From NCBI GenBank assembly GCA_035946615.1, contig DASYZB010000146.1:1-44587 (forward strand): a stretch of DNA of 44,587 nucleotides, written 5' to 3'. The position numbers and the translations under genes were made by a program. Below, piece after piece: positions 10,990 through 24,442 of this stretch. Positions within the stretch are counted from its first letter, which is position 1. Each line of letters starts with the position of its first letter. The notes beneath the pieces are model-generated. The model had not been told where the DNA came from. It did no database searches and saw only the letters and a program-made list of their open reading frames with translations. The DNA is from Verrucomicrobiia bacterium (GTDB lineage: Bacteria; Verrucomicrobiota; Verrucomicrobiia; Limisphaerales; UBA8199).

Positions 10990-12417
10990 TCACGGGCTGG
11001 GCGGAGAGGTTTGAGCCAGATAAGAATGAATGCGGGCGGCTGCCAGGCGCGCATCGCGCACGGCGTGCAGAATCGAAGTGGGCCCGCGCACGATGTCGCC
11101 ACCGGCGAAAACTCCCGGCATCGAGGTCATGAGGTTTGAATCGACGGCAAGGCCCCCCCAATCGTTCCTTGCGAGCATGTTGAAATCATCATCCTCCGAG
11201 GAAGGCGCCGGCATAAATCCCAATGCCAGGATCACGCAATCGGCGTCTATCTCAAATTCCGTTCCGGGTTGAGGGCTAAAGCTGAGCCGTTCGGTCCCTG
11301 CCGATTCGAGCCGGGTGCGGATCAGGCGCAAACCGGACACCGACTCGGTGCCGCGTCCGAGTACGGCGACGGGCGCCGCCTGGAAGAGGAACCGCGCCCC
11401 TTCTTCGCGGGCATTGCGATATTCCTGCCTCGAGCAGGGCATTTCGCGCTCGCCCCGGCGATAGACACAAAGGGTCTCACGCGCTCCGTACCGGATGGCA
11501 GCGCGCAAACAATCCATGGCGGTGTCGCCTGCGCCCAAAACGACCACCCGCTGGCCGGTGATGTCCAGCGCGGACAGTTGCAGGGGAATCGACGTATTCT
11601 TTTGCAAAAGAAAGGGCAGCGCCTGGATGGCCCCTTTGAGTTCCGCACCCGGCACATCGAGTGGGCGCGCCTGGCGCCAATCGATCCCGATCATCACGGC
11701 GTCGAAACCGGTTCGCAATTGCGCAAGGGTGATATCCTTTCCTGGTTTCAGGCCGAGGCAAAACGCAACCCCGCGCTTTTTCAACAAATCGATGCGGCGT
11801 TGAACGATGGATTGGTCCAGCTTGAAAGCCGGAACGCCGTTGACCAACAACCCGCCCGGAACCACATCGGAATCAAAAATGCTGACCGCGTAGCCCTTCT
11901 TTGCCAGCTCCTCGGCGCAGGCGAGGCCGCCCGGGCCGGAGCCCAGAACCGCGATCTTCAGCCCGTTGGGCGGAGCGGTGCTGGCATCGACCTGGCCATG
12001 GGCAAAGGCATACTCGATGAGAAACTGTTCGAGGCCCTGGATGGAAACCGGCTCCGAAATCGATTCCAGGATGCAGGCTCCCTCGCAGAGATGGTCGCTC
12101 GGGCAGACCCGGGCGCAGATTTCGGCCATGTTGGTGACCGAACCCAGGACTGCCGCGGCTTCCAGAAAGCGGCCTTCAGCGGTGAGCAGCATCCATTCGG
12201 GGATAGGGTTGCACAGCGGGCATCCCATCACACAACTGGGGTTGGGGCATTGGATGCAGCGGCTGGCCTGTTCACGGGCGGTGGCCTCATCATAGAGCCC
12301 GTAGATTTCGAGAAAATCAGCCGCTCGTTCGGATGCGGAGCGTTTTGGCAATCCCTGGCGGGTTAATTCGCGCCAGGCGTATTTCGAGTTCAAGTTCGTT
12401 GCGCCAGTCTCGCTCAT
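10990..12417 (-). CDS. GltD-like FAD/NAD(P)-dependent Fe-S oxidoreductase
   Basis: A 475-residue protein of the glutamate synthase small-subunit family, which moves electrons between NAD(P)H, FAD and [4Fe-4S] clusters. The N-terminal Cys set is visible (CIQCPNPSCVMGCPLC and CARVCPSDHLCEGAC). It is followed by an FAD-binding GxGxxG (VLGSGPGGLACAEELAKKGY), a second Rossmann motif for NAD(P)H (VVVLGAGDTAMDCLRAAIRYG) and the C-terminal FAD motif GVFAGGDIVRGPTS. Length matches GltD (about 470). No gltB is adjacent. The gene begins 20 bp after nuoN, on the same strand, as the last gene of a complex I operon that lacks nuoEFG. It may therefore feed electrons to that complex; this is inference. A stand-alone GltD paralogue is the alternative. 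Confidence 0.88.
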   Translation of the reverse strand: MSETGATNLNSKYAWRELTRQGLPKRSASERAADFLEIYGLYDEATAREQASRCIQCPNPSCVMGCPLCNPIPEWMLLTAEGRFLEAAAVLGSVTNMAEICARVCPSDHLCEGACILESISEPVSIQGLEQFLIEYAFAHGQVDASTAPPNGLKIAVLGSGPGGLACAEELAKKGYAVSIFDSDVVPGGLLVNGVPAFKLDQSIVQRRIDLLKKRGVAFCLGLKPGKDITLAQLRTGFDAVMIGIDWRQARPLDVPGAELKGAIQALPFLLQKNTSIPLQLSALDITGQRVVVLGAGDTAMDCLRAAIRYGARETLCVYRRGEREMPCSRQEYRNAREEGARFLFQAAPVAVLGRGTESVSGLRLIRTRLESAGTERLSFSPQPGTEFEIDADCVILALGFMPAPSSEDDDFNMLARNDWGGLAVDSNLMTSMPGVFAGGDIVRGPTSILHAVRDARLAAARIHSYLAQTSPPSP

Positions 12418-12437: not shown

Positions 12438-13934
12438 TTATGGTGGAGCGGGTTTCATTTCCTTCGATTTAACTTCGACTGCCAGGACAGCGGTTGAGGG
12501 CGTGAGGTTTGCCCGGGCGACCGATGTCGAGATGGTATCCAGCACGCGGGCCGGCACAACGCCCAGGGCAAGAATGCCTCCAATGAGCAGAACACACAGG
12601 ACGCGAGTCGGCCAATCCAGCCTGATCGGCGGCAACTCGCCGGGGTCACGGAACCAGGCCTCGCGTACGACGCCCAAATAGTAATAAATAGCAATGGCAG
12701 CATTGACGACCGCGATGATAACCAGCGCCAGATGGCCCTTGGCCAAGGCGGCGGAGAGCAGGGTCAGCTTGCCCATGAAGCCGACGAAAGGCGGCATGCC
12801 CGCCAGGGCAAACACCCCGACGGCCAGCGTCAGCGCCAGCAAAGGCGCCCGGCGGTGCAGGCCGGCTAATTCCTCGATGCGCACATTCGAGCCGTCGCGG
12901 GAGACTTTGCAGATGACAACAAAGCACGCCAGGACCATCAGCACATAGCCGATGATATAATAGAGGGCAGCAGAGTAACCGGCTTCGTCCAGGGCGACCA
13001 ATCCCATCAAGGCATAGCCGGCGTGGGCAATGCCGGAGAAGCCGAGCATGCGTTTGAAATCCTTTTGCATCAAGGCGATGAGGTTGCCGTAGAACATCGA
13101 GCTGGCTGCCAGGACGGTCAGGAGCAAGGCGATCGTCGTGTGGTCCGGTGTCGCCAAAGACACAAAGCGGACCAGCACCGCCACCCCGCCGATTTTGGGC
13201 AGGGACGCTATCAAGCCGGCGGTCTCATTGGCGGCGCCTTGGTACACATCCGGCGTCCAGAAATGGAATGGGAAGATGGCGAGTTTGTAGTAAAGACCGA
13301 CGAGCATCATGGCCAGGCCGACGATCGCCAGGGGCGAATGGATGACCGGCTGGAGCCTGAGCAACAGGCTCGGCAAGGATGTTGTCCCGGTCAGGCCAAA
13401 GAGGTAACTCATCCCAAAGAACATCACGCCGTTGGCCGCCACGCCGAACATGATGTACTTAATAGCGGACTCCATTTGGCTGCGCTGGCCCTGGCGTTCG
13501 CGCCGCATGGGGACCATGAGATAGAGGGGGAACGCGGAGATCTCGAGGGCTACCACCAAAGTAATCAAGTCGATGCAACTGACCAGCATCGTCAACCCGC
13601 TGACACTGATGGTCAGGAACAGGTAGTACTCCGGTTTAACATCGTCGCGGATATCCGAAAGGTTGCCGCCTAGCAACAGGATCAGCAGCAGTCCACCACT
13701 CAGGGCCAGCTTGAGCACCTGGGAAAACAGGTCCACCCGATAGGCGCCATAAAAAAGAGCGCCTTCCTGGCCGAAGCAAAACAGGCAAGATGCAATGGAG
13801 AAGCCGACAATGACGAGCGCAGCAACCCGGGTTTTGCTCGTCTGGGATTCGCCTAAACTCAAACAGAACAATACCAAGGCCCCTAGCAGGAGGACCGTCT
13901 CAGGCAAAAAAAGCAGGATGGTGGAATTCGTCAT
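12438..13934 (-). CDS. nuoN: NADH-quinone oxidoreductase subunit N
   Basis: Antiporter-like membrane subunit of respiratory complex I, about 498 residues with around 14 transmembrane helices. Proton-path residues are visible: Glu in TM5 (VVALEISAFPLYLMV), Lys in TM7 (YYKLAIFPFHFWTPDVYQG), Lys in TM8 (ASLPKIGGVAVLVRF) and Lys in TM12 (GMPPFVGFMGKLTLL). KDFKRMLGFSGIAHAGYALMG is the NuoN signature. I chose the ATG at 13932-13934 over a TTG 18 bp upstream. It is separated from nuoM by 148 bp that hold a long inverted repeat, the only large gap in the operon. Confidence 0.95.
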   Translation of the reverse strand: MTNSTILLFLPETVLLLGALVLFCLSLGESQTSKTRVAALVIVGFSIASCLFCFGQEGALFYGAYRVDLFSQVLKLALSGGLLLILLLGGNLSDIRDDVKPEYYLFLTISVSGLTMLVSCIDLITLVVALEISAFPLYLMVPMRRERQGQRSQMESAIKYIMFGVAANGVMFFGMSYLFGLTGTTSLPSLLLRLQPVIHSPLAIVGLAMMLVGLYYKLAIFPFHFWTPDVYQGAANETAGLIASLPKIGGVAVLVRFVSLATPDHTTIALLLTVLAASSMFYGNLIALMQKDFKRMLGFSGIAHAGYALMGLVALDEAGYSAALYYIIGYVLMVLACFVVICKVSRDGSNVRIEELAGLHRRAPLLALTLAVGVFALAGMPPFVGFMGKLTLLSAALAKGHLALVIIAVVNAAIAIYYYLGVVREAWFRDPGELPPIRLDWPTRVLCVLLIGGILALGVVPARVLDTISTSVARANLTPSTAVLAVEVKSKEMKPAPP

Positions 13935-13954
13935 GGGTTTAGTCGGTTCCAAAC

Positions 13955-14082: not shown

Positions 14083-15585
14083 TCATTTTGGGTCCAGGAC
14101 GGCCAGCCCGGTGGCGGGGTGAGTTTGTTCCATGAGATGTTGGACACTGGCCTCCATGACCCGTGTCAGAGGCGCGGGATGCAGCCCAATCCAGAAAACC
14201 AGCACCAGCAGGGGCGCCAATGTGACGACCTCGCGCACGCCGAGATCGCTCAGATGCGAATGGTCCGGATTTCGAGTGCCCCCGTAAGCGACCTTCTGGA
14301 GCATCCGAAGCATATAAGCAGCGGCAAGAATGACCCCCGGCACGACACAGACCATCATCGCTTTGGAAACCGCAAAGCCGCCGCTAAGCACCAGGAACTC
14401 GCCAATGAAGCTGTTTGTGCCGGGGAAAGCCAAAGAGGACAGGGCGAAGACGCCGGCAAAGAGCGCGAAGATAGGCATGACCTTGCCCATGCCCGCCGCT
14501 TGCCCCAAATCCCGGGTGTGCAACCGCTCGTAAATAATTCCCACTACGATGAACAGGGCGCCCGTGGTGACCCCGTGATTGATCATCACAAGGACAGCTC
14601 CCTCGATGCCGACCTTGTTCAGGGCAAAAATTCCCAAGGTGGCAAAGCCCATATGCGCCACGCTCGAATAGGCAACCAGCTTTTTCAGGTCCGTCTGGGC
14701 AAGGGCCGTCAGACCGCCGTAAAGGATGGCTACCACGGATAATGCCAGTACGTACGGCGTGAACACCGCGGTCGCGTAAGGCGTCATTGGCAGGGAAAAA
14801 CGCAGAAAGCCATAGGTGCCCATCTTGAGCAGAACACTTGCGAGCAAGACGCTGCCGGCGGTAGGGGCTTCCACATGAGCTGCCGGCAGCCAGGTATGGA
14901 ATGGGAACATCGGCACCTTAATCGCAAAAGAGATAAAGAACGCCAGGAATATCCAGCATTGAAAACTCTGCGGCAACGAGCGGCCCATGAGTTCGGGGAT
15001 GCTGAAGGTGCCGGTCTTGAGATACAGTGCGATAATGGCCACCAGCAGGAAGACCGACCCAGCCATCGTGTAGATGAAAAACTTAAGTGCCGCGTAGATT
15101 TTGCGCGGCCCGCCCCAGATGCCAATCAGCAAGGCCATCGGGATGAGCATGGCCTCCCAAAAGACAAAAAAGAGGACCAGGTCCAATGCGCAAAAAACAC
15201 CCACCATCGCCGTCTCCATGATCAAAAGGCAGATCATGAACTCCTTGACCCGGGTCTGGATGTAGCGCCAGGAAGCCAGCACGCATAAGGGCATCATGAG
15301 CGTCGTCAGCAGCACCAGCAGGAGGCTGATTCCATCGATGCCCAGGGCGTAATGGGTTTTGAGCGCCGGGACCCAGGGCACGTCTTCAACAAACTGAAAA
15401 TTCGCCGTTGAGACATCAAATCGCCAGAACAACGGCAGGGAGAAAAGGGCGGCGGCTGAGGTGAAGAGCAACGTCCACCAACGCAACAGGGTTTCGTTCC
15501 TTACGAGGACAGCGATGGCCGCCGCGACCAGCGGACTGAAGATCAGGACACTGAGCGCCGTTTCGTTATAGCCGGAAAGGATCAT
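14083..15585 (-). CDS. nuoM: NADH-quinone oxidoreductase subunit M
   Basis: A 500-residue proton-pumping antiporter-like subunit of complex I. Key residues are in place: TM5 Glu (FWEAMLIPMALLIGIWGG), TM7 Lys (FAIKVPMFPFHTWLPAAHVE), TM8 Lys (LLKMGTYGFLRFSLPM) and the terminal Glu (FPGTNSFIGEFLVLSGGF) that is characteristic of NuoM. The quinone-oxidoreductase M-type signature AQTDLKKLVAYSSVAHMGF is present. It starts 3 bp after the stop of the upstream NuoL/MrpD-like gene. Confidence 0.97.
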   Translation of the reverse strand: MILSGYNETALSVLIFSPLVAAAIAVLVRNETLLRWWTLLFTSAAALFSLPLFWRFDVSTANFQFVEDVPWVPALKTHYALGIDGISLLLVLLTTLMMPLCVLASWRYIQTRVKEFMICLLIMETAMVGVFCALDLVLFFVFWEAMLIPMALLIGIWGGPRKIYAALKFFIYTMAGSVFLLVAIIALYLKTGTFSIPELMGRSLPQSFQCWIFLAFFISFAIKVPMFPFHTWLPAAHVEAPTAGSVLLASVLLKMGTYGFLRFSLPMTPYATAVFTPYVLALSVVAILYGGLTALAQTDLKKLVAYSSVAHMGFATLGIFALNKVGIEGAVLVMINHGVTTGALFIVVGIIYERLHTRDLGQAAGMGKVMPIFALFAGVFALSSLAFPGTNSFIGEFLVLSGGFAVSKAMMVCVVPGVILAAAYMLRMLQKVAYGGTRNPDHSHLSDLGVREVVTLAPLLVLVFWIGLHPAPLTRVMEASVQHLMEQTHPATGLAVLDPK

Positions 15586-15588
15586 GGT

Positions 15589-17382
15589 TTATCGGTTCGA
15601 GTACCAAATCAGCGCCACGATAAGCATGGCTGCGACCGCAAAGGCAAACGTCAGGTTCTCCTGCATTTGGCCGCGCTGGGCGGAGCGCAACCGCCGGCCC
15701 ACACCGCCTATACCGGCTGCCAGGCCATCGACCAGACCGTCAATAACGCGGTTATCGAAAAGGCCCGCCAGGCGCGCTGAGAACATCAGCGGGATGAGAC
15801 CGGCCAGCCGATACAGTTCGCCCACGAACGTATCGGCGCCCTGGACCGGCTTGCGCGCCAGCCAGAAGAAGGCGCGCCCGCCCATGCGATAGAACCAGTC
15901 CATGTCCAGGCTGATGGTGGGCTCGGGCACAAGTTTTTTGAGCAAGAGGAAGAAACCCAGCCCGGTGAAAAGGAGAATCTGCAGCGTCTCGAATATGTGA
16001 TAAGCCGTGTAGGGCTGATATTTCAGCGCCTCTTGAGGGTAAGGCAGCATCTTGTACAGATAAGGCGTATAGCAGCCGATAAAGATGCAGAGGGCTGCGG
16101 TGATGAACATGGCGGCGTTCATGTTCCACGGCGGTTCAGCCGCCTTGTCCAAGACTTCCTGCCGAGGCTTGTTTTTCCCGAACCAAATGAAGTATGGGAC
16201 TTTCAGGCCAGTGTGGAGGAACGTGCCGGCTGAGGCCAGCAAGAGCAGGAATCCGACCCAGAATTTGTGTTGTTCAAAACCAGCGGAGATGATCATCGAT
16301 TTGCTGACGAACCCGCTAAAGAGCGGGAAGGCGGATATGGATAGGCCGCCTATTAGCGTGAACAAAAATGTCCAGGGCATTTTTTTCCAAAGCCCGCCCA
16401 ACTCGGTGAACTTGCTTTCGCCGGTCATGTGAAGAACGGCTCCGCAACCCATGAACAACAGGCCCTTGTAGAGGATGTGGGCGAAGGCATGGGCACAGGC
16501 GCCGTTAATGGCCATCTCGGTGCCCAGGCCAACGGCTGCGACCATGTAACCGACCTGGCTGATGATGTGATAGGCCAGCAGCCGCCGGCTGTCGTTTTCC
16601 AGCACCGCGTACACCACGCCATAAAGCGCCATGATAACTCCCAGCGGCACCAGGATGCCCATCCCCGCAAAACCCCGGCACAAGGCGTACACGGCGGTTT
16701 TCGTTGTAAAGGCGCACATGAACACCGCGCCGTTGAAAGTAGCTTCGCCGTAGGCATCGGGCAGCCAGGCATGCAGCGGCGGCACGGCCGCATTGAGGAT
16801 GAACCCGATCATAATCAGGTAAATGGCCGGTGTCGGGTGTTGAACATCCAGCGCGTTAAAGGCCCAGTTCCCCTGAGCCCTGCAATGCATTACTATGCCC
16901 ATGAGCAGGGCCAGGCCGCCGGTGACGTGCACCAGCAGGTAGCGCAAGCCGGCTCCGAGCGATTGCCGCCTGCCCCGGAACCAAATCAGGAACACCGAGG
17001 AAAAAGCCATTAATTCCCAAAAGAGGAAGAGCGTGATGAAGTCCCCGGCGTAGATAGCGCCAATGGAACCGGCGACATAAAACCAGGCGGCGATATGCTG
17101 CGAATCCTCTTTGACATGCATCCCGTAAAGGGTCCCCAGGATGCACATCAGGCTCATAATATAGCCGAAAACAAGGCTCAAGCGGTCCACGCGCCCAAAC
17201 ACCAGTTCCCAATCAAGAAATTGCACGTGGCCAAAACTGCCAGCGGTCATGGTCAACGTTCGGGCAAAGACCAGCACCGGGATGAGCAGCAGGTAACACT
17301 TCTTGAGACGGGCCGGCAGGAATGGCAGCAGCAAGCTGCCCAGGATGAGAATCAATGCAGGATGAAGCCAAAAATGAGTCAT
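15589..17382 (-). CDS. NuoL/MrpD-like antiporter subunit of complex I
   Basis: A 597-residue polytopic membrane protein in the place where nuoL is expected. It has the TM5 Glu (FLFWELMAFSSVFLIWF), a TM8 Lys (AFTTKTAVYALCRGFAG) and a TM12 Lys (FPLFSGFVSKSMII). The TM7 position, normally Lys before the PxHxWLP motif, is Asn here (FILNAAVPPLHAWLPDAY). The C-terminal extension resembles the NuoL tail (IDGLVDGLAAGIGGVGRRL, then a final TM), so it may include a lateral-helix equivalent. By sequence it resembles proteins annotated as Na+/H+ antiporter subunit D more than textbook NuoL. It begins 6 bp after the 103-aa gene and ends 3 bp before nuoM. Confidence 0.85.
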   Translation of the reverse strand: MTHFWLHPALILILGSLLLPFLPARLKKCYLLLIPVLVFARTLTMTAGSFGHVQFLDWELVFGRVDRLSLVFGYIMSLMCILGTLYGMHVKEDSQHIAAWFYVAGSIGAIYAGDFITLFLFWELMAFSSVFLIWFRGRRQSLGAGLRYLLVHVTGGLALLMGIVMHCRAQGNWAFNALDVQHPTPAIYLIMIGFILNAAVPPLHAWLPDAYGEATFNGAVFMCAFTTKTAVYALCRGFAGMGILVPLGVIMALYGVVYAVLENDSRRLLAYHIISQVGYMVAAVGLGTEMAINGACAHAFAHILYKGLLFMGCGAVLHMTGESKFTELGGLWKKMPWTFLFTLIGGLSISAFPLFSGFVSKSMIISAGFEQHKFWVGFLLLLASAGTFLHTGLKVPYFIWFGKNKPRQEVLDKAAEPPWNMNAAMFITAALCIFIGCYTPYLYKMLPYPQEALKYQPYTAYHIFETLQILLFTGLGFFLLLKKLVPEPTISLDMDWFYRMGGRAFFWLARKPVQGADTFVGELYRLAGLIPLMFSARLAGLFDNRVIDGLVDGLAAGIGGVGRRLRSAQRGQMQENLTFAFAVAAMLIVALIWYSNR

Positions 17383-17388
17383 AACGGC

Positions 17389-17700
17389 TTAGTGCTTCTC
17401 ACCAGAATCCTGGGGACTCGCAGGGCTCGTCCCCCCTGGTTTGGTTGAGACCTCGTAGTAGTCCTCTCGCGTCATAATTCCGGCGTGGCCATACCATTTC
17501 GAGAGGAGGATAATGAGCACGCAACCCACAAAACCGAACAGGGACCAAAAGCCTGGCACACGTTCCATTTGGGTATGGGCGTGGCCCTTGTTCACAAAAA
17601 GGCCGTCCGCCAGGATCAGCAGCGCCAGAAGCGCCAGGCAGATTCGCACCACGCTCTTGAGCCGCTTGCGCAGAAATTCGATGAATTTGACCAGGTTCAT
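17389..17700 (-). CDS. Small two-TM membrane protein inside the complex I operon
   Basis: A 103-residue protein with a basic N-terminus (FIEFLRKRLKSVVR), two predicted transmembrane helices (ICLALLALLILADGLF and FWSLFGFVGCVLIILLSKW) and a short hydrophilic tail with REDYYEVSTKPGG. The motif ERVPGFWSLFGFVGCVLI looks conserved: I associate similar short proteins with MrpD-like antiporter genes in other bacteria, but cannot verify this here. Its ATG overlaps the stop of the upstream MrpD-like gene (ATGA, 17697-17700) and the next gene begins 6 bp later, so it is almost certainly translated with the complex. Probable accessory membrane subunit; function unknown. Confidence 0.8.
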   Translation of the reverse strand: MNLVKFIEFLRKRLKSVVRICLALLALLILADGLFVNKGHAHTQMERVPGFWSLFGFVGCVLIILLSKWYGHAGIMTREDYYEVSTKPGGTSPASPQDSGEKH

Positions 17701-19172
17701 GAGATGAGATGCTGCACGAAGCGCATGAAAAATGCGGGATAAAGGCCAATCAGGACCGAGATGACCGCGGTGATACTCAAAGGAATAACCAGGGCGGGAT
17801 GCGCCTCACTATATTGATGGTGCGCGTCGGCTTCGGAGCTTTTTCCAAAAAAGCCCTGGTAAACAACTGGAGCGAAATACGCCGCATTGAGCAGCGTGCT
17901 GGCCAGGAGTATCACGATGATCCCGATCGAGCCCGCGTCAAACGCGCCATTGAGCAAATACCATTTGGTAACAAACCCGGCTACTGGCGGAGCGCCAATC
18001 ATACTCAGAGACGCCAGCGCGAAGGCCCCGAAGGTGAACGGCATCGCCCGGCCCAGACCGCTCATCTCAGAAATGTTTTTCTTATGAGTCGCGACGTAAA
18101 TGGCGCCGGCGCAAAAGAACAATGTGATTTTAGAAAAGGCATGATTGGCGATATGAATCAAACCGCCCTCAATGCCCGCAGGGGTCAACAGCGCCACGCC
18201 CAGGATGATGTACGAGAGCTGGCTCACAGTTGAATAGGCCAGCCGCGCTTTCAGGTTGTCTTTGCTCAACGCGACGATTGAGCCGACGATAATGGTGAAA
18301 GAGACGAAGTAAGCGGTCGGCAGCCCCAGATTCAACGCGTGCATGCAGTCCACGCCGAACACGTAAAGCATCACACGCACGGTGGAAAAGACGCCGACTT
18401 TGACGACCGCGACGGCATGGAGCAGGGCGCTGACGGGGGTAGGAGCGACCATGGCGCTGGGGAGCCAATTATGGAACGGCATCACACCGTTCTTGGCAAA
18501 CCCAAGGATGCAGCAGACATAGAGCGCCGCGATGATCCCGTGGTGCACGTTCGGCGGGATGATGCCGGTGCGGATGTTGGTGGCGAAATCCAGGGTGCCC
18601 GAGAGCACGTAAATGAGAACCATCGCCGGTAGCACGAGGCCCTTGGCTGTCGCCGTCAAATACACCAGGTATTTCTTTCCGCCTTCATACCCTTCCTCAT
18701 CCTGATGATGGGCGACCAGCGGGTAGGTGCAGATGCTGACGATTTCGTAAAACAGATACAAGGTCAGCAGATTATCCGAGAAGGCACAGCCGATGGCGCC
18801 GAACAAGGCCAGAGCGAAACAGGTGTTAAAGCGGGTTTGGGCGTGCTCCTCGAGACCGCGCATGTAACCGGCCGAGTAGAACACGGTCACTACCCACAGA
18901 AATGAGGCCGATAATGCGAAGACCATCGACAGGGCGTCGGCTCGCAGCGCGATACTCAAGCCCGGCAGCAATTGAAACACCACAAAATGCAAGCGGACGC
19001 CAGCGAGGACTGCGGGGATCATCGATGCAGTGATGGCAAACAGGGTCGCGGCCGCCAGGAACGAGCAGGTCTCGCGCAGATTGGGGCGTTTGCCGAAGAG
19101 CATGACCAGGCCGGCGCCAATGAGCGGCGCCAGGATGGCCAGCAGAAGCCGGATGTCGGTTGTGGGTGTCAT
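17697..19172 (-). CDS. MrpD-like antiporter subunit of complex I
   Basis: A 491-residue proton-conducting antiporter-type membrane protein. Conserved ionisable residues are complete: TM5 Glu (LYLFYEIVSICTYPLV), TM7 Lys (GFAKNGVMPFHNWLPSAM), TM8 Lys (HAVAVVKVGVFSTVRV) and TM12 Lys (APPVAGFVTKWYLLNGAF). Its closest look is to monovalent cation/H+ antiporter subunit D rather than NuoM or NuoL, and it has no NuoL-type C-terminal extension. It is embedded between nuoK (2-bp gap) and the 103-aa gene (4-bp overlap). With the following NuoL-like gene plus NuoM and NuoN, it brings the operon to four antiporter-like subunits. Pumped ion (H+ or Na+) cannot be decided. Confidence 0.88.
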   Translation of the reverse strand: MTPTTDIRLLLAILAPLIGAGLVMLFGKRPNLRETCSFLAAATLFAITASMIPAVLAGVRLHFVVFQLLPGLSIALRADALSMVFALSASFLWVVTVFYSAGYMRGLEEHAQTRFNTCFALALFGAIGCAFSDNLLTLYLFYEIVSICTYPLVAHHQDEEGYEGGKKYLVYLTATAKGLVLPAMVLIYVLSGTLDFATNIRTGIIPPNVHHGIIAALYVCCILGFAKNGVMPFHNWLPSAMVAPTPVSALLHAVAVVKVGVFSTVRVMLYVFGVDCMHALNLGLPTAYFVSFTIIVGSIVALSKDNLKARLAYSTVSQLSYIILGVALLTPAGIEGGLIHIANHAFSKITLFFCAGAIYVATHKKNISEMSGLGRAMPFTFGAFALASLSMIGAPPVAGFVTKWYLLNGAFDAGSIGIIVILLASTLLNAAYFAPVVYQGFFGKSSEADAHHQYSEAHPALVIPLSITAVISVLIGLYPAFFMRFVQHLIS

Positions 19173-19174
19173 TG

Positions 19175-19501
19175 TTATCCCTTGAGTTCGTTCAACCCGG
19201 CAGTTTTGACCGAGCGATAATTGCGATAAACGGCGATGATGATGCTCAAGGCAATCGCCACCTCGGCGGCAGCCAACCCCATAATGAACAGGACAAAAAT
19301 CTGGCCCGCCGCGGGGTCTGAGGCCGTAAAGCGGTTAAAGGCCATCAGGTTTAGCGAGGCCGCCGAGAAGATCAACTCGCCCGAGATCAACATCCCGATC
19401 AATGTGCGCCGCCGGATAAGCCCGTAGATGCCAATGGCCAGCAGCAATGCCGCAGCCATTAAAAAGATGTCGAGCCGGTCGTAAATAGGAGAGAAATTCA
19501 T
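19175..19501 (-). CDS. nuoK: NADH-quinone oxidoreductase subunit K
   Basis: A 108-residue membrane subunit with three TM helices, part of the complex I E-channel. Both buried Glu residues are visible: one in GMLISGELIFSAASLNLMAF and one in IMGLAAAEVAIALSIIIAV. Length is normal. It begins 6 bp after the 62-aa small ORF and ends 2 bp before the MrpD-like gene. Confidence 0.95.
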   Translation of the reverse strand: MNFSPIYDRLDIFLMAAALLLAIGIYGLIRRRTLIGMLISGELIFSAASLNLMAFNRFTASDPAAGQIFVLFIMGLAAAEVAIALSIIIAVYRNYRSVKTAGLNELKG

Positions 19502-19507
19502 AAGATG

Positions 19508-19696
19508 TTATGCGGGGTCAGGCTCTCGTTCCCCCAGCGAGAGACCCGTTTGGGACTCCGGAGAGACTTCCATCCCGGCTGGTTTCTCTATTTCCTGAGC
19601 AGAGGACGGCGCTTGTGGCATTCCGGTTTCCGCAACCCGAGCGCCTGCCCTGGAAGCCTGCGCCAGAATCTGACTGAATAATTGGAGCGTGGTCAT
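19508..19696 (-). CDS. 62-aa hypothetical ORF between nuoJ and nuoK
   Basis: A small soluble-looking protein with a short helical N-terminus (TTLQLFSQILAQASRAG) and a Pro/Glu/Ser-rich tail. Its ATG overlaps the nuoJ stop codon (ATGA, 19693-19696) and its stop is 6 bp before nuoK, so it fills the gap as an operon gene would. I recognise no family. It might be a real small accessory subunit. Alternatively it is a coincidental frame through an inserted sequence; the stretch also contains a CTCTCG/CGAGAG hairpin (about 19522-19542). Confidence 0.45.
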   Translation of the reverse strand: MTTLQLFSQILAQASRAGARVAETGMPQAPSSAQEIEKPAGMEVSPESQTGLSLGEREPDPA

Positions 19697-20226
19697 GGTT
19701 GAGTCCTTCCGGGTTTGGCAATAGCCAGCGCGCCGACGATCGCTACGAGGATCGCCAGAGAGATGAGTTCAAACGCGAGGCTGTATGTGGTCAGCAGGGC
19801 ACGCCCGATTGCCTTGATCGAGCCGTCATTGGCCACCGCTGGAATCGAGGTCCAGGTCGCATGCGTGCCGACCCAACCCAAGGCATAGAAAATCGCTACT
19901 GCGGCGACCAGGCCCACCCCGCCCCACACAAATGCCGAACCGCTCGTGGCGCCGGCGGGCGGCTCGTCGGCTTCGGCGAGCATGATAGCGAAGATGATGG
20001 TCACACAGACGGCGCCCACATAGATGAGAATCTCCATCAGAGCGAGAAAGGGGCTGTTGAGGAAGTAGTAGAGCCCGGCCAAGCCGAACGAGCAGATGGC
20101 CAGCCCGCAGACGCTGCGAATCAAGCGCGCGCTCAGCACTGCCAGCAAAGCGCCGGCGCTCATAGTAGCCACGCAGACCAGGAAAATCCCGTTGGCGATC
20201 AGTGATGAAGCCGGGAACGGGTTCAT
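19693..20226 (-). CDS. nuoJ: NADH-quinone oxidoreductase subunit J
   Basis: A 177-residue membrane subunit with five TM helices, which links the Q-site region to the antiporter subunits. The conserved TM3 region is clear (NSPFLALMEILIYVGAVCVTIIFAIML), including the pi-bulge segment YVGAV. Start overlaps the nuoI stop by 4 bp and stop overlaps the 62-aa ORF start by 4 bp. Confidence 0.94.
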   Translation of the reverse strand: MNPFPASSLIANGIFLVCVATMSAGALLAVLSARLIRSVCGLAICSFGLAGLYYFLNSPFLALMEILIYVGAVCVTIIFAIMLAEADEPPAGATSGSAFVWGGVGLVAAVAIFYALGWVGTHATWTSIPAVANDGSIKAIGRALLTTYSLAFELISLAILVAIVGALAIAKPGRTQP

Positions 20227-20771
20227 TTGGTCTCCAGTTTGAGCCCCCCGCCGACCCCGGCAGGTTCCTCTTTAGGCGCGCTGGTCGCGGGGGGAGGGAG
20301 GGCGTTTTGTGAATTCAGCGCGCCAGCCGGGGAAGCCGTCTCGGCTTCGAGCCGTTGAAACAAATCCATGATGAAATCTTCCTTATGAGTGCTGGCCAGG
20401 TTGTAGTCGTGGGAGAAACGGATAGCCCCGTCGCGGCAGGCCTCGACGCAGGAACCGCACAGGCTGCATTTGGTGAAATCGAGACGGTACTGGGTAACGG
20501 TCTTGCGTTTGGCGCCTTCAGGCTTCACGCCATCGACCGTGATGCAATCGCTGGGGCAGGCCCTCTCGCAGAGTTTGCAAACGAAGCATTTGGGTTTGCC
20601 CGTTGCTGGGTCACGCACCAGCTCGATATGCCCGCGGAAGCGGGCGGGCATCTTCAGGGCCTGGTGTGGGTACTGAACCGTGACAATCGGTTTGAAGAAT
20701 TGGCCCAGCGTAATACGCAACCCGATGACCAGGCTTTTGATTCCGCCGTAAATTTCTCGAAACGCGTTCAT
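20223..20771 (-). CDS. nuoI: NADH-quinone oxidoreductase subunit I (2x[4Fe-4S])
   Basis: A 182-residue peripheral subunit carrying clusters N6a and N6b, which pass electrons to NuoB. Both cluster motifs are intact: CFVCKLCERACP and CSLCGSCVEACRDGAI; the second lacks the usual Pro after the fourth Cys. The C-terminus carries a low-complexity Pro/Ala/Gly tail of about 40 residues beyond the family core. It overlaps nuoH and nuoJ by 4 bp each. Confidence 0.95.
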   Translation of the reverse strand: MNAFREIYGGIKSLVIGLRITLGQFFKPIVTVQYPHQALKMPARFRGHIELVRDPATGKPKCFVCKLCERACPSDCITVDGVKPEGAKRKTVTQYRLDFTKCSLCGSCVEACRDGAIRFSHDYNLASTHKEDFIMDLFQRLEAETASPAGALNSQNALPPPATSAPKEEPAGVGGGLKLETK

Positions 20772-21781
20772 GCCCTGAAAAGTTTAACCATGGCGCTGGA
20801 GAGAATTAGCGTGAAGAGCGCTACCGGGATGAGAATCTTCCACGAAAGATTCAACAGACCGTAGAACTGCGTGCGGGGAAACGTCCAGCGAATCCAAACC
20901 ACCGAAAAGACCAGCAGATAAAGCTTCACCAAAAACCAGAACAACCCCGGCAGAATCCCAATCGGGCTTTGCCAGCCGCCTAGAAACAGAACAGTCCCCA
21001 GGCTGCAGCCCAGCAGGATATTGGCGTATTCCGCCATGAAAAAGACTCCGAAACCCATTCCGGAATACTCGGTGTAGGCCCCCGCCACCAACTCGCTTTC
21101 CGCTTCGGCCATATCGAACGGCGCCCGGTTTGTCTCAGCGAGCATGCAGATGAAAAAAATCAAAAAGGTAACCGGCGCCAGCGGATTGAGGTCCAGCCGG
21201 AACAAGTACCATTTCCAGAATCCCCCGGCCTGGTTATTGACGATGTCATTGAGATTCATCGTGCCGGTGACCATCACCATCGTGATGACCACCAGGAGCA
21301 TCGGGATTTCATAGGCGACGTTCTGCGAAACCACACGCGCAGCCGAGATGATCGCGTATTTGTTCCGCGAGGACCATGCCCCGAGCATTATCGCCATCAC
21401 ATTGATAGAGCCGAGGGCAAAAATCATCAGCAAGCCGACGTTGATATTTCGAACCGCCAGTCTCGCGCTAAAGGGGATGACCGCCAGGCTCGCCAGGGCA
21501 GGGGCCATCACCAGCAAGGGCGCCATCCGAAACAGTGTTCGGTCCACGCCCGCCGGGACGATGAGCTGTTTGGAGAGCAGTTTGACCGCATCCGCTATGG
21601 GCTGGAGCAGGCCCGCCCATCCCACCTCGGTCGGGCCTGGACGCCGTTGAAAACGGGCGGCGCCCTTGCGCTCGACCCAGACCAGGTAAGCCGCGTTCAA
21701 ACCGACGAAGGCCATGATCGCAACCAGCGACAGAACGAGCCTGAATGGTTCGTCCGAGAGTCTATGGAGCAGTTGGCGCAT
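20768..21781 (-). CDS. nuoH: NADH-quinone oxidoreductase subunit H
   Basis: A 337-residue membrane subunit with about eight TM helices, forming the quinone-chamber entrance. Signature motifs are present: YLVWVERKGAARFQRRPGPT, the acidic loop AETNRAPFDMAEAESELVAG and YTEYSGMGFGVFFMAEYANI. It starts 18 bp after nuoD; no nuoG lies between them, unlike the E. coli arrangement. Confidence 0.96.
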   Translation of the reverse strand: MRQLLHRLSDEPFRLVLSLVAIMAFVGLNAAYLVWVERKGAARFQRRPGPTEVGWAGLLQPIADAVKLLSKQLIVPAGVDRTLFRMAPLLVMAPALASLAVIPFSARLAVRNINVGLLMIFALGSINVMAIMLGAWSSRNKYAIISAARVVSQNVAYEIPMLLVVITMVMVTGTMNLNDIVNNQAGGFWKWYLFRLDLNPLAPVTFLIFFICMLAETNRAPFDMAEAESELVAGAYTEYSGMGFGVFFMAEYANILLGCSLGTVLFLGGWQSPIGILPGLFWFLVKLYLLVFSVVWIRWTFPRTQFYGLLNLSWKILIPVALFTLILSSAMVKLFRA

Positions 21782-21799: not shown

Positions 21800-22936
21800 T
21801 TATCGGTCAATATCGGGGATGACCAGGTCCAGGCTGCCCATCAAGGCCAAGGCGTCTGGCAGCAGCATTCCGCGCGAAGCCTCCTCGAACAGACTCAGGT
21901 TTGAGAGGCACGGCGTCCGGAGCTTCACCCGGTAGGGAATCTCTTTGTTATCGCTGACCAGTCGCACCATGAAACGCCCTCGCGCCGCCTCGACCGCATA
22001 GCAGTAATCGCCGAGTGGCAATTTGAGCACGCGCGGGACCTTTTCAGCCATCACCGGACCCACCGGCAGTTTATCCAGCGCCTGTTCGATGATGCGCAGG
22101 CTTTGGGCAATTTCTTCCATTCGCACCAGGTATCGCGACATCGAGTCACCTTCGGGGAAGGTGGGGATCAGGAAATCGAATTCGGGATAGGCAGAGTAGG
22201 GCTCAATCTTTCGAACATCATAGGCAACACCCGAGCCGCGAATCACCGGACCAGTCGCCCCATAGCCCCGGCACATCTCGACTGTGATTGGGCCAATCCC
22301 AATCAGCCGTTTGCGCAGGATGATGTTTTCCGTCACCAACTCCCGGTACATTTTGAGACGGGGACGCATGTGCGCCACAAAGGCGCGGGCGCCCTTGAGG
22401 AATTGGTCATCCACATCGTTGTACAGGCCGCCGATACGGAAATAGGAATAAGTGAGGCGTGCCCCGGTAATGCCTTCGAGCAGGTCGAGGATTTTCTCGC
22501 GATCGTCGAAGGCGTACAGCAAGGGCGTGAATCCGCCCAGGTCCAGCAGAAACGCTCCCCACCAGACCAAGTGGCTCGAGATGCGATTGAGTTCCGAAGT
22601 AATGACCCGGATATACTCGGCGCGCGGGGGCACTTGCAGCTTGGCGGCGCGTTCCACCGCGCCCACGAATGCGTGCGTGTAAGTCAGCGCCGAGAGGTAA
22701 TCGATGCGGCTGGTGTTCGGCAGAAACTGGGCGTAGGTGCGATTTTCGCCCATTTTCTCCTGCATCCGGTGGATGTAGCCGCAAACCGGCTCGGCGCGCA
22801 CGATGTACTCGCCGTCCATGGTCATCTTGACCCGCAACACGCCGTGCGTGGCCGGGTGCTGCGGCCCCAGGTTCAGGACAAACGTCTCCTGGGGCGCCTT
22901 TTCGGCAGGTTGAGCAATATCCGGTTCGGCAATCAC
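21800..22936 (-). CDS. nuoD: NADH-quinone oxidoreductase subunit D (49 kDa)
   Basis: A 378-residue Q-module subunit related to the large subunit of NiFe hydrogenases; with NuoB it forms the quinone site. Motifs: NLGPQHPATHGVLRVKM at the N-terminus (the His loop at the quinone pocket), VCGYIHRMQEKMGENRTY, ISSHLVWWGAFLLDLG and the C-terminal LVIPDIDR. It is a separate gene from nuoC, overlapping its stop by 4 bp. Confidence 0.97.
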   Translation of the reverse strand: MIAEPDIAQPAEKAPQETFVLNLGPQHPATHGVLRVKMTMDGEYIVRAEPVCGYIHRMQEKMGENRTYAQFLPNTSRIDYLSALTYTHAFVGAVERAAKLQVPPRAEYIRVITSELNRISSHLVWWGAFLLDLGGFTPLLYAFDDREKILDLLEGITGARLTYSYFRIGGLYNDVDDQFLKGARAFVAHMRPRLKMYRELVTENIILRKRLIGIGPITVEMCRGYGATGPVIRGSGVAYDVRKIEPYSAYPEFDFLIPTFPEGDSMSRYLVRMEEIAQSLRIIEQALDKLPVGPVMAEKVPRVLKLPLGDYCYAVEAARGRFMVRLVSDNKEIPYRVKLRTPCLSNLSLFEEASRGMLLPDALALMGSLDLVIPDIDR

Positions 22937-23499
22937 ACGCTGAAATCTTTCCGCAATGGATGAAAGGTGGCGTCCTCAGGCAGCAAAAACGGGATGAGAT
23001 TGGGGTGTCCCAGGAAATGGATGCCAAAGAAGTCATGTGTCTCGCGTTCGTGCCAGTTGGCGCCGGGAAACACCGCCGAGATGGTGGGGATTTCGGGATG
23101 GTCTCTGGGAATTCGCGAACGCACCACGACCCGCAGCAATTGAGTAGGATGGAAGTAATCATAGACCACTTCCATTTGGCCCGCGGCGAGCCAATCCACA
23201 CCGGTGATGGTATCGAGGGCAAACCCTTCGCGAGCTAGCTCGCGCGCCGCAAAGACCACCTGGTCGGGTTGAACCGTGGCGTTCAGATGGTAACCCTTCA
23301 TCAAATAATCGATCACCTGGAAGGGAATCGGCAGATGCGACAGGGCGTGAGTGGAAGGCTGCCGCGCATCGCTTGCAGTGACGCTCTGGAGTTCCGCCAC
23401 TCCCGCCTGCCCGGGGGCCGTTGCCGAACCAGGCAAAAGGGGGCTCTCTGCCGGGCCGGTTACAGAGGTTTGACTGGAGGTTTTTGTCTCGGGATTCAT
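22933..23499 (-). CDS. nuoC: NADH-quinone oxidoreductase subunit C (30 kDa)
   Basis: A 188-residue Q-module subunit. The family signature NWHERETHDFFGIHFLGHPN followed by LIPFLLPEDATFHPLRKDF is intact. Before the core (which begins near residue 58) is an N-terminal stretch rich in Ser, Pro, Ala and Thr that is not typical; a later start is possible, but I see no better one. It lies 50 bp after nuoB and overlaps nuoD by 4 bp. Confidence 0.92.
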   Translation of the reverse strand: MNPETKTSSQTSVTGPAESPLLPGSATAPGQAGVAELQSVTASDARQPSTHALSHLPIPFQVIDYLMKGYHLNATVQPDQVVFAARELAREGFALDTITGVDWLAAGQMEVVYDYFHPTQLLRVVVRSRIPRDHPEIPTISAVFPGANWHERETHDFFGIHFLGHPNLIPFLLPEDATFHPLRKDFSV

Positions 23500-23549: not shown

Positions 23550-24062
23550 TTACTCCGGTTTGACCACCGGCCAGCGTCTTTTGCCTGTCAGTTTCTCTTC
23601 CAGTTTCAAAATCCCTTCGATCAGCCCCTCAGGCCGGGGCGGGCAGCCGGGTATGAAGACATCGACCGGAAAGAGCTTGTCCACGCCCTCGACCACCGCG
23701 TACTGGCCGGGAAACACGAACGGCCCGCCTGAGATAGCGCAATTGCCCATCGCAATGACCCATTTGGGTTCAGGCATTTGGTCGTAAAGGGTCTTAACTG
23801 CGGCGGCCATCTTGTGGTTCACTGTTCCCGCCACGATCATTACGTCGGCCTGGCGAGGCGAGGGGCGGAAGACCTCCGCCCCAAAGCGGGCGATGTCAAA
23901 CCTCGAGGCCCCAGCCGCCATCATCTCGATGGCACAGCACGCCAACCCGAAGGTGAGAGGCCAGAGCGAGTTGGCCCGCCCGAGGGCGAGCAGTTCATCC
24001 AGCTTGGCGAACCTCACCCAGGGCGAACAGTCCTTCAGCAGTTGATCTTCTTGCGTTTCCAT
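23550..24062 (-). CDS. nuoB: NADH-quinone oxidoreductase subunit B (PSST, cluster N2)
   Basis: A 170-residue subunit holding terminal Fe-S cluster N2 next to the quinone site. Ligands are visible: the tandem Cys pair in [12 protein letters not shown], Cys in [12 protein letters not shown] and Cys in [16 protein letters not shown]. The start overlaps nuoA's end by 28 bp. Confidence 0.96.
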
Positions 24063-24442
24063 TCAAAAACGCCCTTCCTCCAGGCGTACAGAATCACCAT
24101 CGACAAAATGCCCACGAAAAGGATTAGCTCACAGAAATCACGAACAAAGAAAGCCCCGACGTCTTCTCTATAAACCAACGCCACTGGGAGCAGGTACAAC
24201 ACATCGACAGCAAACGCCACGAACACCAAAGCGTACAGGTAGTAAACCGCGCTGTAGCGAATCCACGCATCCCCGATCGGGTCCATGCCGCATTCGATGG
24301 CTTGTTCGGTCTTATGGGCGTAGTTGCGCGTACGGCGCGCCGAAATCAGATGGACCAGGACAATCGGTCCGAGGGCAAATACCAGGCCGCCCAGGCAAAA
24401 AGCCACGACGTAAATCAAATCGCCTAAAAGGACATCGTCCAT
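24035..24442 (-). CDS. nuoA: NADH-quinone oxidoreductase subunit A
   Basis: A 135-residue membrane subunit with three TM helices and the conserved Cys loop ([18 protein letters not shown]), which sits near the quinone site. It is the first gene of the complex I operon. The 123 bp between it and recO should hold the operon promoter, although I found no clear -35/-10 pair, and read-through from the recO cluster is possible. Confidence 0.95.

Follow-up and report, generated by a model that had tools for sequence, protein, structure and literature searches.

The window, a stretch of 44,587 nucleotides from a bacterium of the Verrucomicrobiia, carries on its minus strand an operon for a complex I whose genes run in the order NuoABCDHIJK, MrpD1, a 103-residue ORF, MrpD2, NuoM and NuoN, followed by the gene of a GltD-like Fe-S flavoprotein (Table 1). 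The last of these ORFs has an ATG start 20 bp downstream of the nuoN stop codon (12438), and inspection of the 20-bp gap revealed no promoter- or terminator-like site. The operon encodes four subunits of the antiporter type (MrpD1, MrpD2, NuoM and NuoN), with two MrpD-like proteins in the place of NuoL, as is characteristic of green complex I. Neither the ORF list nor the profile matches contain NuoE, NuoF or NuoG in this operon, which thereby differs from the rhizobial form.

Table 1. Genes of the complex I operon in the window, listed from the last to the first gene.
Feature	Position	Strand	Profile match or remark
GltD-like Fe-S flavoprotein, 475 aa	10990..12417	-	two [4Fe-4S] clusters N-terminal, FAD domain, NADP(H) domain with YRR
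NuoN, antiporter-like subunit	12438..13952	-	TIGR01770 332.9 bits, over cut-off
NuoM	14083..15585	-	TIGR01972 610 bits
MrpD2-like antiporter subunit (PRK12668), green complex I marker	15589..17382	-	NF009310 759 bits, over cut-off
Small membrane protein, 103 aa, between MrpD genes	17389..17700	-	no Pfam or NCBIfam match
MrpD1-like antiporter subunit (PRK08375)	17697..19172	-	NF006236 826 bits, over cut-off
NuoK	19175..19501	-	NF004320 78 bits, over cut-off 57
NuoJ	19693..20226	-	
NuoI, both CxxCxxCxxxC motifs intact	20223..20771	-	TIGR01971 115.6 bits
NuoH	20768..21781	-	NF004741 331 bits, over cut-off
NuoD, HPATHG and RIDY quinone-site residues, no NiFe ligands	21800..22936	-	PF00346 286.8 bits
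NuoC	22933..23499	-	PF00329 111.7 bits
NuoB, CC, C and CP ligands of cluster N2	23550..24062	-	PF01058 107 bits
NuoA, first operon gene	24035..24442	-	PF00507 84 bits

Two Pfam domains match the flavoprotein above cut-off: Fer4_20 (105.8 bits) and Pyr_redox_2 (92.2 bits), a pairing of an Fe-S domain with a pyridine nucleotide-disulphide oxidoreductase domain that defines the GltD-like class. The motifs of the class are present as well, namely the Cys ligands of two [4Fe-4S] clusters and a GxGxxG/A motif each for FAD and NAD(P)H. All eight cysteines (54, 57, 62, 66 and 101, 105, 111, 115) align with those of Azospirillum brasilense GltD (6s6s); seven are invariant in 64 orthologues and the eighth is kept in 55 of them. 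The predicted fold is already fixed by homology to the solved GltD (364 bits). Residues 319-321 read YRR, the motif for the phosphate of NADP(H) in NfnB and DsrL-2 (PMC7596348), and the flavoprotein probably uses NADPH. In one lineage (f13; genomes G120, G139 and G099, loci L091, L097 and L100) the NADPH motif has degenerated to GEDDTA, with CPH for YRR, and two of these three proteins are still linked to nuoN; this warns that the role may have changed or decayed there.

An earlier note on this DNA had described the flavoprotein gene as the last of a complex I operon without NuoEFG, 20 bp after nuoN, with two Cys-rich [4Fe-4S]-type motifs, FAD and NAD(P)H sites and no gltB neighbour. Every part of that description agrees with the ORF coordinates, the Pfam matches and the alignment to 6s6s, and gltB was not found anywhere in the window.

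The remainder of the complex appears to contain what an electron would need on its way to quinone. The [4Fe-4S] motifs of NuoI, the N2 ligands of NuoB and the quinone-site residues of NuoD are all present, the residues being assigned by their counterparts in Thermus complex I. By its sequence, the quinone-reducing part looks intact and the NADH head missing, and NuoI is a candidate docking site for low-potential electrons. The block NuoJK-MrpD1-small ORF-MrpD2-NuoMN is shared with rhizobial green complex I, whose MrpD1 and MrpD2 are 52-55% identical to those of the window; the rhizobial operon, unlike this one, has NuoEFG (the block, then ABCD-EFG). The 103-residue membrane protein recurs in nearly every green operon compared, and also in S. 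meliloti and rhizobia, where it is annotated as hypothetical. It is probably a green complex I subunit that has yet to be named.

What feeds such a complex? The question arises in most lineages whose complexes I lack NuoEFG. The earlier note had proposed that the GltD-like protein could replace the NADH module. The missing NuoEFG could instead be borrowed from elsewhere in the cell, the GltD-like protein being a bystander. Other contigs of the window's genome (5.6 Mb, 96% complete) encode a canonical complex I that includes NuoEFG (C143) and HoxEFU/HoxH-like proteins (C18), and NuoF homologues are encoded by all 26 genomes of the order that possess an EFG-less green complex. In one of these (G119; L144 662-9070), HoxEFU/HoxH genes, together with a sigma-54-activator-like response-regulator gene, lie downstream of the green nuo-GltD operon. 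The Q-module subunits of the canonical complex, however, are only about 30-61% identical to their green counterparts, and borrowing leaves the co-occurrence and linkage of the GltD-like gene, described below, unexplained. We consider it highly improbable. A third complex I of the same genome (C3; L113 3443-15583) is also EFG-less and has two NuoM-type subunits (2M type).

Could the flavoprotein be a familiar enzyme that merely happens to sit here? It resembles A. brasilense GltD (6s6s/2vdc; TIGR01318) over its full length, with both [4Fe-4S] motifs and the FAD and NADPH motifs (score against 6s6s, 363.7 bits), but it scores below the TIGR01318 cut-off for the GOGAT beta subunit (410.4 against 482.95 bits), is linked to complex I and has no GltB partner. 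With NfnB/SudA of T. maritima and P. furiosus it shares the module and the YRR motif, and differs in that no NfnA gene adjoins it. The only GltB (GXGXG-domain) match of the genome is on C128 and has a gltD of its own beside it, and a separate NfnA/NfnB-like pair is found on C85. Because both pairs exist separately, the flavoprotein is unlikely to be a GOGAT small subunit or NfnB, and we rejected both identities. A remote GltB, which the earlier note had named as a partner that would overturn its proposal, is likewise an unlikely one, since the sole gltB has a gltD next door. Azospirillum matches at 43% identity were not accepted as orthologues; the A. brasilense match is a true GltD adjoining GltB. 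Elsewhere in the genome (C87; L011 4186-7993), a 648-residue GltD-like protein with a ferredoxin-like C-terminal end is encoded beside apparent Rieske and cytochrome b genes, which were called from N-terminal sequence only; it may be a further electron module of the GltD-like kind, attached to a respiratory complex.

The distribution of the gene was surveyed in 293 genomes of the order, with ORFs called by a hexamer-scored caller. An orthologue had to score above roughly 310-350 bits with an identity of 42% or more, limits below which NfnB and GltD paralogues fall, and the green complex was recognised by an MrpD2 match of more than 700 bits. A clear orthologue was found in 56 genomes, a count that includes one partial, and the EFG-less green complex in 26. 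The two tend to coincide: the orthologue occurs in 22 of the 26 green genomes but in only 34 of the remaining 267 (Fisher p = 2.6e-14, a value that ignores kinship and that common descent inflates). For the family to which the window belongs, the figures are 9/10 and 0/3 (p = 0.014). Thirteen of the 26 carry the two on the same strand side by side, nine with the gene after nuoN, the window included, and four with it before nuoA. In nine more the orthologue lies elsewhere or on another contig, and in the remaining four, one of them 98% complete (G068), it was not found.

These counts have to be weighed against chance neighbourhood, in which an NADPH oxidoreductase with another job, near haem synthesis for example or as a second GOGAT small subunit, is simply inherited beside nuo. 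About 14 orthologues are encoded directly after or near hemH, in a haem operon, and others in many mixed places without a green complex; moreover, the window protein is 37-43% identical to GltD, NfnB and AegA-type proteins. Yet both ends of the operon are used, there is one GltB per genome where GltB was found, that of the window's genome having its own GltD, and linkage to the green complex is seen in no fewer than two distinct GltD lineages (AU p = 0.001). Hitch-hiking of this kind thus seems improbable to us.

The latter point comes from the orthologue tree. Here the window protein falls into a clade of 13 (support 100/98). Every one of their genomes has the complex, ten with the gene linked, and the clade's three sub-lineages appear again in a tree built from the complex. 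The linked GltD of G069 lies outside the clade (AU p = 0.001), and that of G193 may do so as well (AU p = 0.09). In G233, a whole unit, GltD-A-B-C-D-H-I-J-K-MrpD1-orf-MrpD2-M-N, sits inside a different complex I operon, with nuoD on one side and nuoI on the other, and we conclude that the GltD gene travels with the green complex. The tree shows co-inheritance and at least one independent re-association with the complex.

In some lineages, proteins of this family evidently have different partners. Five orthologues form a clade of their own (100/100) and are encoded behind an operon for a group-4 [NiFe]-hydrogenase with the nickel motifs RICGIC and DPCISC. The hydrogenase, too, is a relative of complex I and has no NAD(P)H module. 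The five loci (L090 1634-9947, L094, L095, L098 and L099) have genes of the HyfB, C, I, G and H types, with HypB nearby in some. Hydrogenase operon and GltD together make a candidate NADPH-coupled membrane hydrogenase.

Is the GltD-like protein, then, a general substitute for NuoEFG? Outside the order, 12 further genomes of the phylum have a green complex, and each of their operons that was read lacks EFG; EFG is in fact absent from every green operon of the phylum that was examined. None of these 12 operons has an adjacent GltD gene, and only two of the genomes have an orthologue elsewhere. An EFG-less green complex therefore does not need a GltD-like protein, and the phylum survey rejects universal replacement. 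Nor is co-occurrence obligatory, at 22/26 in the order and 2/12 outside it. The adjacency whose conservation the earlier note had asked to have checked holds, at one operon end or the other, for half of the green genomes of the order and for none of the 12 beyond it. Its proposed replacement of the NADH module survives as a possible electron partnership in this lineage. As a general or obligatory arrangement it is excluded by the four green genomes without the gene, the nine with the gene elsewhere, the 0/12 outside the order and the many orthologues found beside hemH or at other sites where there is no green complex.

Other genes occupy the ends of the green operons in these relatives. In one family (f66; G575 and G391, L159 and L160) genes for a ferredoxin and for the alpha and beta subunits of a 2-oxoacid:ferredoxin oxidoreductase lie directly upstream of nuoA, and in another (f72; G411, L170) those for the alpha and beta subunits do. 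Four further genomes have an ETF-quinone-oxidoreductase-like gene after nuoN on the same strand (L165 17102-18730, L167 16137-17804, L168 5186-6817 and L169 14696-16327), three identified by Pfam matches and the fourth by sequence likeness. The operon ends, this suggests, are a slot for different low-potential donors, among them the GltD-like protein and 2-oxoacid:ferredoxin oxidoreductase.

Ferredoxin is a credible alternative donor. Green complex I may be fed by reduced ferredoxin at NuoI, as other EFG-less complexes are, with the GltD-like protein a soluble NADPH:ferredoxin oxidoreductase that draws on a common ferredoxin pool and is no subunit at all. The genes upstream of nuoA in f66 and f72 fit such a supply, as do the orthologues behind group-4 hydrogenases, which use ferredoxin-type subunits; unlinked orthologues, and those in genomes without the green complex, suit a soluble role. 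There is also a precedent in NfnII, a simple NADPH:Fd reductase (PMC8097209). Linkage at both operon ends and the unit in G233 are nevertheless tighter than an enzyme serving a common pool requires, and the green operon of the window contains no ferredoxin gene. We regard this alternative as rather unlikely, while giving it more weight than borrowing or chance.

Given its linkage, co-occurrence and co-inheritance with the complex, and with no other partner for it, the protein is best read as functionally coupled: an NADPH-linked Fe-S flavoprotein that works with the EFG-less green complex I encoded in the same operon. Judging from the genomic evidence we lean towards this coupling, with a confidence only somewhat better than even. 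The more specific proposal that the flavoprotein docks stoichiometrically in place of NuoEFG is doubtful. Equally tentative is the picture of a single GltD-like NADPH dehydrogenase subunit replacing the NADH module of a complex with a four-antiporter arm, which would work as an NADPH:quinone proton pump or as a proton-driven reducer of NADP+.

How would electrons travel if the two are coupled? NADPH would reduce the FAD of the flavoprotein, from which electrons would pass singly across its two N-terminal [4Fe-4S] clusters. Their point of entry into the complex would be the NuoI clusters (N6a/N6b), reached by direct docking or via ferredoxin, from where they would continue to N2 in NuoB and on to quinone. 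Run in reverse, the same path would make NADPH from quinol and the proton-motive force. The nucleotide specificity, the path, its direction and any physical contact between the partners are inferred.

Comparable arrangements exist. GltD-like modules hand electrons from NAD(P)H to a partner protein via low-potential [4Fe-4S] clusters (PMC8097209). In DsrL, the NAD(P)H:acceptor oxidoreductase for DsrAB, a GltD-like module has likewise been co-opted to supply a different redox enzyme (PMC7596348), although DsrL has an additional C-terminal ferredoxin domain and a different partner. A functional likeness is seen in FpoF of the F420H2 dehydrogenase of Methanosarcina, a flavoprotein/Fe-S unit that serves as the alternative entry for electrons into a complex I lacking NuoEFG (PMC12361115); FpoF belongs to another protein family and its donor is F420H2. 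Within those parts of the literature that our search covered, Chadwick 2018 and Degli Esposti 2016 lying outside its scope, we found no description of a GltD gene with complex I.

If the coupling is true, a single-gene NADPH module would be a simple solution, and NADPH would be a respiratory fuel, or a product of respiration, in these bacteria. The driving force of NADPH is larger than that of NADH, which would, we infer, match the additional pumping subunit of the complex.
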